64,000 nucleotides of DNA, taken from the NCBI GenBank assembly GCA_905221605.1, contig CAJNDS010002213.1, forward strand, positions 917,636 to 981,635, in the 5' to 3' direction. Positions 42,884 to 45,800 of this stretch are shown here, one piece after another (the first letter of the stretch is position 1; every line of letters starts with the position of its first letter). The notes beneath the pieces are model-generated. The model had not been told where the DNA came from. It saw nothing but the letters and a program-made list of their open reading frames with translations, and made no database searches. This stretch comes from Symbiodinium natans (Eukaryota; Sar; Dinophyceae; Suessiales; Symbiodiniaceae). The position numbers and the translations under genes are program-made.

Positions 42884-45800
42884 ATGCGTGAGGCCATCTG
42901 CATCCACATCGGCCAGGCGCGCGAGCCATGCTTTGAACTTTGAACCCGTTCGCTAGACCTCGAACTCCCATCTCTCGAACTCAAGTCCTGAAAGCCTTAA
43001 AACCTACACACCACGCATCACCACACACACCCTGACATCCAACAACCCTGTCCAGCGTCAGCAGGGCGGCGTGCAGATCGGAAACGCCTGTTGGGAGCTC
43101 TTCTGCCTCGAGCATGGCATTCAGCCGGATGGCCAGATGCCCAGCGACGCCTGCCCTTACACGGGCACTTAAGGCTTTCTGTTTCTGTTTCTGTTTCTGT
43201 TTCTGTTTCTGAGGGGACTGAACAGCGACCCTAAACCTCTCACTGAGAAACACCCGGAATTTTCCCCGAAGACCCCTAAGCCCTGAGCCTTTGTTCGGAT
43301 CAAGTTGGGCCTCTCGACCTGGGTTTAAGGACAAGACCATCGGCGGCGGGGATGTCTCTTGGTTGTACTTGCAGTGTTTGGTTTGAACTGTTTGGGGCCG
43401 TTTAGGGTTTGCTGGCGGTTCAAAAGCCCAGACCTGGCTGTCCAGCAACGACCCTGTGAGGACGCGTTCAAAACATGGGTGAATTCATGGAAGCCCAGCA
43501 GTGCCCACGGAGCCCTTCCTGGTTTGGGAGTTCACACAGCAATTGCGGTGCTCGACGAGGCCTTCAGCGCCGGCGAAGCAATCGTCAGTCAGGACTTCTC
43601 GGAAGCGTTTGACCGGGCAAGCCCGGACCTGAGCATCAATGCCTTGAGAAAAGCAGGCATCGCGACCGAACTTGCCACAGCACTAGATTGGGTATGGGGT
43701 CATCAAGTACGTTGGCTTTGCCTTGGGCACTATGTGCACCCCGAGGCGCAGGAGGTTTGCCAGTCATTACCTCAAGGCGATCCACTCAGCCCTCTTGCAC
43801 TCTTGGCGCTGCTCAGTGGTCCTCTACAGCAAGTCCAACAAGACATGACTGCTCAAGATCATGACTGTACCACGGTCACCTATGTAGATGACCGAAACAC
43901 AGTAGTCAAATCGTTGGATGCGACCGTCTCCCTGGTCAACAGCTGGCGACGAGAAGCTCCCCGCTTCGGCATGAAGGAAAACGAAAGCAAGCTCCGCATC
44001 GTCCCAAGGGGTGGCGCCGGCAAGCGTCAACAGTTCAAGCAGCAGCTCGCCGCCAAATTGGACTGCCCGGAGTCGGTCGTGGTTGATACCCATCGCATCC
44101 TAGGTGTCGACTTCGCTGGTGCTGCCGATCCAGATATACCTCTGGTCACGGGCAATGCTCGCTTGGATGAAGCGGATCGTCGTGCGCGAAGAGTTGCTCT
44201 CATTTCTCAAGGCCGTGAGCGAATGAAGACCTTCCTGGCCACTTCGGTTGCTGCGGTCGCACAATGGGGATGGTGGCGGCGCGAACCTCGACAAGAACTT
44301 CGCAAGTTTGCCAAAATCATGCGAACTGGGCTACGTGATGCCAGCACTACTTGGTCCAAATATCTGCGGATGATCTTCCTCGGACACAGGTTGGATGGCT
44401 CCTTCACCACAGGTTTCCAAGCATGGAGTATGCTGCGGGGGGCGTACAAAGTTGGCTGTGCAAAAAACTGGGACCTCCGAGGGCGCGCTGGCACTTGGCT
44501 CAATCGAGTAAATCGCTGGCTCAAAAAGCTAGGTTGGAGAGACGTTGGCCCCTGGCGATGGCGCCACGCAGAACTTGGAGATATTTTCTGGGACAGAGAA
44601 AGCCGAGACAAGGACCTCCACGATCACGCGCTGCGAGAATCATGGCGGAAGCAATGTTTCAGCAATTTCCTGGCTCAAGACAGAAGAGATGCTACTGAAG
44701 CAGTGGCTCAAGCCGTGCAGTATGACAGTGACAGGCTCAAAGCGGCGATCGCAGCTGCAAGTGAGCATGGACTTCATGCTGCAGCTGTTCTGGGAGGTGG
44801 GGTTGTCAGTGATGCCCTCTTCACTGTTCATTGCAAGGAGCCTCTGCCACATCAATGTCAGTGGTGTTTCAGTCACGTTGTTCCTGGTTGGGATCATCAA
44901 TGCTGGCTATGTCCGTGCGAGGCCTTTTCTGCTACAAGGCCGGCTGTCCCAGAGGATTTCATGCAACGCCGCTTTGCGTGGCCACGCCTGAATAACAAGG
45001 AGTACGATGCTGCTGTGGTGCGACATGTAGTTCATGTTCGGCAAGCATTATTGAGTGCCAGGTGGGAGCGTCGCCCCCGAGAGAGCGACATCTCCATCAA
45101 CACGTGAGTGGATTTCTTTGACGAGGGCACTGTCGTGTCTTTGACGAGCACGGCAAGGTGAAATCAATTATATGTGAGGACGCGTTTAACACCTTCTTTT
45201 CCGAGACTGGTGCGGGGAAGCACGTCCCCCGCTGCGTCATGGTGGACCGGGACTTAGCTTTTTCCTGGCAGATTCCCTGGTTCTGATGGTATGGTGGCTT
45301 TGGTAACGTCCCCGAGCCCAAAACCCAGGGCGACCTGCGGGGTATTCGAGTTTGGTGGAAAGGGCCTCGCTTTCTCCGTTCCGCCGAAGCGCCCATCGGA
45401 AGAGTGTCTGTCTGTGTGAGTGTGGGGGCTCCTCAGGCACTTCGCACATGCTGCGCTGTGTACTTAATGTTGACTTCGCATTAATAAACCCCCCCCCCCC
45501 CTGGTTGATCAATCTCTCTGGCCAGGGCCTCCTTAATTATATTCGCCTAAATCCTGGTAGGAAGTACTATTAGTTTTAGTATTAGGTAGTAGTACCAGTA
45601 CTAGCAGAGCTCTAAACTCATTCTCTTCAAACACCCTGAAACTTAATTATAAGTTTAAGGTCATTACAAAACATCGCCCGTACAAAAAAAATATTCCGGG
45701 CTTTAATTGTGGGGGGCTATATTATTGTGTTCCGGCAGCTGGATTTTAGAATTGTAGCGGGAATTCCTAATGTGAAGTCAACATTAAGCTTTCGCGAGTG

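Follow-up and report, generated by a model that had tools for sequence, protein, structure and literature searches.

The 64-kb stretch of Symbiodinium natans DNA analyzed here (the window; C1901:917636-981635 in the 759-Mb genome of 2543 contigs that was searched) contains four alpha-tubulin genes in tandem, as delineated by spliced alignment, and in the second of these (copy 2), a retrotransposon is inserted at the 3' splice site of intron 3. Each copy contains 20 introns. The acceptors are AG/G throughout all four gene models (a slash marks the junction), and the donors are 13 GC, 7 GA and no GT in copy 1 and 12 GC, 7 GA and 1 GT in copy 4. These donors fit a dinoflagellate, given that, according to the relevant section of a review, 25-74% of the introns in Symbiodiniaceae are GC/GA-AG (PMC11453091). 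The coding differences among the copies (17, 18, 18, 1, 9 and 10 in the six pairs) are all synonymous, including 17 of 17, 1 of 1 and 9 of 9 between copy 2, the exons of which are intact, and copies 1, 3 and 4, respectively. Thus, provided that copy 2 uses the downstream of its two candidate acceptors, all four genes encode one identical 453-aa protein, which agrees with the earlier suggestion, made in a sequence-only reading of the window, that exon 4 remains intact behind that AG.

The 1704-bp insert in copy 2 is flanked by two identical copies of TGTGAG/GACGCGTT. This 14-nt repeat, TGTGAGGACGCGTT, consists of 6 intron bases and the first 8 bases of exon 4; with at most one mismatch, it is found 5 times in the window, compared to a mean of 0.01 in 100 shuffles, and the three matches outside copy 2 mark this junction in copy 1 (1 mismatch), copy 3 and copy 4. 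When these copies are aligned with copy 2 minus the insert, the junction is uninterrupted in all three, so that each represents the empty site, and intron 3, which is 136, 107 and 107 nt long in copies 1, 3 and 4, spans 1825 nt in copy 2. The sequence-only reading had proposed precisely this, an inserted retroelement whose 14-nt target-site duplication had copied a 3' splice site, and the empty sites bear it out. An assembly artefact is an unlikely source of the insert and the duplication because the sequence on either side is native to the paralogues, and a second locus in the genome carries the same element. The insert encodes a reverse transcriptase (RT) that matches Pfam RVT_1 (E 7.5e-10) at profile positions 68-192 of 205; the match starts at position 68, and the insert is therefore 5'-truncated. 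A repeat search around the window copy found no long direct repeat flanking the insert. Searches of PDB sequences with the RT fragment gave no match at E up to 1 and, in another search, one at E 1.1; scans of viral_contigs and genome_contigs recovered no relatives of the RT; and a single-sequence structure prediction for the fragment, with a mean predicted local distance difference test score (pLDDT) of 36.3, was not used.

Among the matches listed, the DNA of the insert occurs at two places in the genome, the window and contig C2490 (99%), its 3' end is recovered by DNA search at the same two places alone, and a protein search finds the same two loci at 99-100%, with the next match at 35%; all genome copy counts given here are lower bounds because the search scores the best candidates only. 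The C2490 element is longer, ~4.16 kb (about C2490:33282-37444, minus strand), and consists of a frame of 209 codons from an ATG, one in-frame TGA and then a frame of 1154 codons. The latter contains a complete RVT_1 match (E 3e-10, profile 6-192 of 205) and, at residues 35-216, a weak match to Exo_endo_phos (E 0.017, 15.3 bits, the curated cut-off being 24.5), a candidate apurinic-type endonuclease domain ahead of the RT, where the motifs look right by eye; a PDB sequence search with this frame gave no match at E up to 0.1. Both frames lie in the same phase, separated by one TGA followed by CTA (about 6812-6814 of L011), a context that we take to be leaky and hence to make read-through from open reading frame 1 (ORF1) to ORF2 possible.

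Six tubulin genes were modelled on C2490:10001-60000. The C2490 element resides in the third intron, 4318 nt long, of one of them, d4, which encodes the same 453 aa. It is inserted at the acceptor homologous to that of copy 2 and has its own 13-nt duplication, TATATCAAG/GACG. Given that exon 4 of d4 is only ~88% like that of copy 2, and that each insert is bounded by the sequence of its own locus, the comparison indicates that these are separate insertions. The two inserts have a common 3' end, the window copy being the truncated one, and differ at 10 of 545 codons, with 6 synonymous differences (~382 sites) and 4 non-synonymous ones (~1253 sites), for a crude ratio of ~0.2. A near-identical longer copy with mostly synonymous differences points to recent activity; in the cited portion of one study, LINEs (long interspersed nuclear elements) of Symbiodiniaceae are described as highly divergent ancient remnants (PMC8045281). 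Tubulin exon 4 is found in at least 13 places in the genome, and the element at 2 of these. Elsewhere, a gene on C1840 has a roughly 3-kb intron 3 without the element, and in two divergent alpha-tubulin genes (C226:73513 and C226:136962; L014 and L015), no intron separates exon 3 from exon 4, which shows intron gain or loss at the intron-3 position among the paralogues.

The closest protein relatives of the insert (35% RT identity), L019 and L020, represent a second family, and it is this family that extends the pattern. Its 3' end was found in at least 8 places, two of which are identical, for 7 distinct sites; this count leaves out L057, which is identical to L056, and does not include L021 (a chance-sized 10-nt repeat only), L024, L031, L034-L036, L038-L040, L042 and L044-L046. 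The right junction is AG/GAC at 6 of the 7 distinct sites and AG/GAG at one. The copies range from 2330+ to 37 nt, all ending at the same base, and six sites have duplications, of 11, 15, 8, 16, 15 and 15 nt.

Three of the 7 distinct sites are one and the same acceptor of an ammonium transporter gene (Pfam Ammonium_transp), and since the lengths of the element differ (124, 37 and 42 nt), these are separate events. The exon that follows this insertion is found in at least 18 places, 4 of which (3 distinct) carry element sequence; among the other 14, five were read, and four of these have a plain intron of 105-114 nt, with the intron end of the fifth lying outside the stretch. In the C2018 copy, the 147-nt intron consists of the element and one duplication, with nothing else, and if read unspliced, contains in-frame stops. 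Removal of this intron at /GACTTTG...CCAAG/ restores MGAK-DFAGG, and the Ammonium_transp profile runs from 147 to 149 over the join. This is the clearest case for use of the duplicated donor, considering that only a cut at /GACTTTG would restore MGAK-DFAGG.

Across the two families, AGGAC is present in the right flank (22-30 nt) at 8 of the 9 distinct sites, compared to 2.6% of random 25-mers, and in none of the 11 right flanks (first 25 nt) of five other RT families of the same genome (Fisher P 7e-5 for the two families against the others, where each control 3' end is the point at which the alignment of two copies breaks off, least certainly so for L025 and L037). That the entire RT superfamily targets AG/GAC was considered and rejected, in view of these 0 of 11 junctions and of a misfit insertion in a polyubiquitin array. 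The element in that array, L052 (C635:681301-689300), represents a sixth family and has a 1462-codon frame, and ~59 nt of the repeat unit are missing at its junction.

Table 1. Features of the tubulin array (window coordinates) and insertion sites of the second family (by contig)
Feature	Location	Strand	Junction sequence	Basis or remark
Alpha-tubulin copy 1	36545-42394			Coding without stop; spliced alignment
Alpha-tubulin copy 2, insertion host	42884-50231	+		21 exons, 20 introns; coding without stop to 50228, TGA 50229-50231
Alpha-tubulin copy 3	50718-56006			Coding without stop; spliced alignment
Alpha-tubulin copy 4	56496-61960			Coding without stop; spliced alignment
Exon 3 of copy 2 (DKTIGGGD)	43330-43353	+		Spliced alignment
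Native part of intron 3, to the original acceptor	43354-43460	+	TGTGAG	Identical to copy 4
Enlarged intron 3 of copy 2, 1825 nt	43354-45178	+		GT donor, AG acceptor; spliced alignment
Left copy of target-site duplication	43455-43468	+	TGTGAG/GACGCGTT	Repeat search, alignment
Possible intron of 1718 nt with GA-AG ends, both supplied by the duplication; alternatively, second step of recursive splicing	43461-45178	+		Inference
Open RT frame, 548 codons, then TGA (45105-45107)	43461-45107	+		In frame with exons 1-3 through the upstream AG
5'-truncated non-LTR (non-long terminal repeat) retrotransposon, 1704 bp	43469-45172	+		99.4% identical to 3' part of C2490 element
Right copy of target-site duplication; its AG is the downstream acceptor	45173-45186	+		Repeat search, alignment
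Intact exon 4 of copy 2	45179-45244	+		Spliced alignment
Empty site, copy 1	37126-37139	+	TGTGAG/GACGCTTT	Alignment
Empty site, copy 3	51246-51259	+		Alignment
Empty site, copy 4	57067-57080	+		Alignment
Second-family site	C2138		Duplication/flank CTGCTCAG/GAC	Precedes short ankyrin-like exon (Pfam Ank E 0.0086, below cut-off)
Second-family site	C570		Duplication/flank AACGGCAG/GACATGG	
Second-family site	C134		Duplication GCTGATAG, then GAC	
Second-family site	C2319		Duplication TAGGGTTGGGATTTAG, then GAG	Telomere-like repeat
Second-family site	C2018		Duplication/flank GTGCCAAG/GACTTTG	Ammonium transporter; 124 nt of element
Second-family site	C182		Duplication/flank TGGCCAAG/GACTTTG	Ammonium transporter; 37 nt of element
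Second-family site (two places)	C437 and C1		Right flank CCCCCCAG/GACTTTG	Ammonium transporter; 42 nt of element; duplication looked for, none found

Intron 4 of copy 2 harbors a second insertion of ~320 bp (45464-45787), bounded by 30-nt terminal inverted repeats (83%) and by TTAA on either side, which is absent from copies 3 and 4 and which we take to be a piggyBac-type miniature inverted-repeat transposable element. Over the tubulin introns (36545-61960), the first bases of an intron are more similar to those of the exon that follows it than in shuffled pairs (permutation P ~0.001-0.003), and intron 9 has a 7-nt repeat, GCGCCTT; possibly, these similarities are fossil duplications from intron insertion. 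Telomere-like TTTAGGG arrays lie within tubulin introns at 37387-37461 (copy 1, intron 4) and 61756-61890 (copy 4, intron 20), and similar arrays are found at 31187-32305, at 35751-35981, near 62.4-62.6 kb, within an intron of a transporter gene (L066) and at the site of the C2319 insertion (L054). A head-to-tail repeat of ~640 bp (98-99% identity) occupies positions 28782-30461.

The sequence of copy 2 allows three possible outcomes of splicing: skipping to the downstream AG, with removal of the whole enlarged intron; removal of the insert as a separate intron; or use of the upstream AG. The first two would both yield the normal mRNA. The second goes beyond the sequence-only reading: the duplicated junction holds a GA-type donor along with an acceptor, and the insert could be an intron of its own. 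In the left duplication, the original acceptor is directly followed by GACGCG, and intron 2 of the same gene starts with GACGCC, that is, with a GA donor. With a donor profile built with intron 3 left out, GAG/GACGCGTT scores 4.9, above 11 of the 19 donors of copy 2 and in the top 3.5% of the G[ACT] sites of the window. More generally, GA, GC or GT follows 19 of the 20 acceptors of copy 2, compared to 851 of the 4408 AGs in the window, so that in this lineage, copying an acceptor tends to copy a donor as well.

In the third outcome, copy 2 would be broken, through joining of exons 1-3 to the RT or through nonsense-mediated decay of the message; we consider this unlikely, if by no means far-fetched. 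The upstream acceptor has kept its native intron context and its native distance from the donor, and could win. Splicing to it would join GGGD-DAFKTW in frame, for an open chimera of 594 codons, as the sequence-only reading had pointed out; the frame stands, but in d4, use of the upstream AG leads the tubulin frame to a stop after 90 codons, in a frame other than that of ORF1, so that the tubulin-RT chimera looks fortuitous and is probably a matter of chance. The acceptor profile derived from 19 introns of copy 4 argues against this outcome, placing the downstream AG at rank 1 and the upstream AG at rank 29 of 124, but the preference shrinks with a copy 1 profile and is reversed with a 12-nt copy-1 profile; the bootstrap support for the downstream acceptor varies from 0.32 to 0.98 across profiles, all of which rest on few introns and are weak evidence. 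The intact exons of copy 2, with all differences synonymous, also speak against breakage, if weakly, because the insertion is recent. Any harm to copy 2 would presumably be hidden by the other copies encoding the same protein.

The sequence-only reading had presented the insertion as a snapshot of a transposon enlarging an intron. As a mere chance event, it finds no support in the genome search: among the matches listed, the only other close copy occupies this very acceptor in another alpha-tubulin gene, and the second family is found repeatedly at AG/GAC, so that the site looks chosen. We infer that an endonuclease makes this choice. It appears probable that two LINE families target 3' splice junctions with AG/GAC, and that the insert in copy 2 is a 5'-truncated copy of such a low-copy LINE, removable by splicing. 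Under this scenario, the first strand would be primed a few bases upstream of the AG, and the duplication would thus usually take in the acceptor along with the start of the exon. Its right copy would return the acceptor to the host exon, and the left copy would keep the original acceptor and, where the duplication enters the exon, provide a GA-type 5' splice site of the kind that dinoflagellate-type spliceosomes would accept. The element would then leave as the tail of the old intron or as its own intron, in one or two steps, with the same normal mRNA as the result.

Several observations weigh against this scenario. The numbers are small, 9 distinct sites and two families, and a tree of 27 RT rows, all from this genome, does not join the two AG/GAC families with support; a third related element, the one in the polyubiquitin array, has neither AG/GAC nor a duplication. 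AGGAC occurs 152 times in the 64-kb window, on both strands, and is therefore too common to explain, on its own, repeated hits on one gene, which implies some further specificity. The C570, C134 and C2319 insertions are at no identifiable exon, and that in C2319 has AG/GAG at its right junction, within a telomere-like repeat. In C134 and C2319, the duplication goes no further than the AG, and C437/C1 showed none; altogether, a duplicated GA donor is present at 6 of the 9 distinct sites, not at all of them. Even the C2018 site may once have contained an older intron, since lost: an intron is present there in four of the five other transporter copies examined.

Other explanations for the choice of sites fare worse. 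Specificity could come from the flank, rather than from an endonuclease, if element RNA with host sequence past its 3' end annealed to a paralogous junction. Both tubulin inserts do have the same 3' end, only a few bases away from the homologous junction, and both target genes are multi-copy, but the right flank in copy 2 is its own TGTGAG, not the C2490 sequence, with one base in excess of what a strict template alignment would give, and the second family is found at AG/GAC of unrelated genes too, which makes such retargeting rather improbable. Less plausible still is random insertion followed by persistence, within genes, only at acceptors where splicing out is possible: acceptor insertions would be less harmful, and gene space may be dense, but insertions in non-coding DNA should persist as well, the other RT families have no AGGAC junctions among 11, and neither the two of two at one tubulin site nor the three of seven at one transporter site is explained. 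That a LINE hit the acceptor by accident and was tolerated in a multi-copy gene is very unlikely: a 14-nt duplication, 5' truncation and a 5' junction with 9 of 10 bases matching are nothing unusual in LINEs, and the genome offers at least 13 tubulin exon-4 places, but the only other close copy listed occupies this acceptor in another tubulin array, and 6 of the 7 distinct second-family sites are AG/GAC. Finally, ectopic gene conversion from the C2490 array hardly deserves credence and was rejected as the source of the insert: the two inserts are 99.4% identical over 1704 nt, and copy 2 is indeed a mosaic (100% identical to copy 4 across 42600-43468, copy-4-like left of ~45.93 kb, copy-3-like right of 46.06 kb, with mixed sites between), but this switch is away from the insert, which breaks off partway through the longer element and has the 14 bases of copy 2 itself on either side, whereas a conversion tract would carry the C2490 flank TCAAG/GACGCC.

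Beyond site choice by the two LINE families, there is a broader proposition, for which the case is finely poised but falls a little short of persuading us, namely, that these belong to a class of LINEs whose choice of target turns them into introns on arrival. A nick at AG/GAC would yield a duplication that supplies an acceptor and, usually, a GA donor, the spliceosome would remove full-length and truncated copies alike, and RT-derived elements would thereby lengthen and re-found dinoflagellate introns. In the C2490 copy, the captured left acceptor is 7 nt before the ORF1 ATG; speculatively, spliced-leader trans-splicing there could give the element an mRNA of its own. A spliced-leader motif (up to 3 mismatches) is absent from the window.

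If these interpretations are valid, a retroelement is able to survive inside coding genes and leave them in working order, and there is an RNA-based route to intron lengthening, and perhaps gain, in a lineage of rapid intron gain, such that not DNA transposons alone but reverse-transcribed elements too reshape dinoflagellate introns. Filled and empty paralogues side by side make the splice choice readable from cDNA. The components are already known, namely, target-specific LINEs, introners with splice sites in duplications and a short interspersed nuclear element (SINE) at an acceptor in merle dogs. A literature search found no LINE targeting splice junctions of protein-coding genes, with overlap possible with the dinoflagellate introner study of Roy et al. 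2023, and no work joining recursive splicing with target-site duplication, intron and transposable element.

The features of the insert and its relatives are those of non-LTR (LINE) retrotransposons: an RT domain, duplications of variable length (14, 13 and 8-16 nt) and 5' truncation with a common 3' end. Target specificity is also apparent, if in small numbers, with two of two close copies at the tubulin acceptor and three of seven second-family sites at the transporter acceptor. Known target-specific LINEs insert into multi-copy RNA genes and repeats. According to the sections of a survey that deal with them, target-specific non-LTR groups include the R1 and Tx1 clades with an apurinic/apyrimidinic endonuclease, and R2, NeSL, Utopia and others with a restriction-like endonuclease; the elements described here resemble these in the LINE-type RT, the duplication, the 5' truncation, the low copy number and the repeated independent insertion at one site of multi-copy genes (PMC4640811). 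Unlike those groups, the present elements appear to target 3' splice junctions, and these belong to protein-coding genes. The likeness to introners, including those of Symbiodinium microadriaticum, is that of a mobile element that, going by its structure, would become an intron, with splice sites derived from the duplication, in a lineage with GC and GA donors; in the pertinent parts of the two papers, introners are mostly consistent with DNA transposons and have 4-bp duplications in Symbiodinium (PMC9860276, PMC11453091). The elements in question, by contrast, lack the short fixed duplications and terminal inverted repeats of such introners, being RT-encoding LINEs with duplications of 8-16 nt, present in few copies and mostly at existing introns. 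The canine merle SINE in PMEL17, as characterized in the cited excerpt (PMC7349775), is a parallel to the tubulin insert in its position, a non-LTR element at an intron/exon boundary that keeps the exon-side acceptor, makes a normal mRNA possible and has a 15-bp duplication; it differs in being a single allele in reverse orientation, with no sign of target choice.
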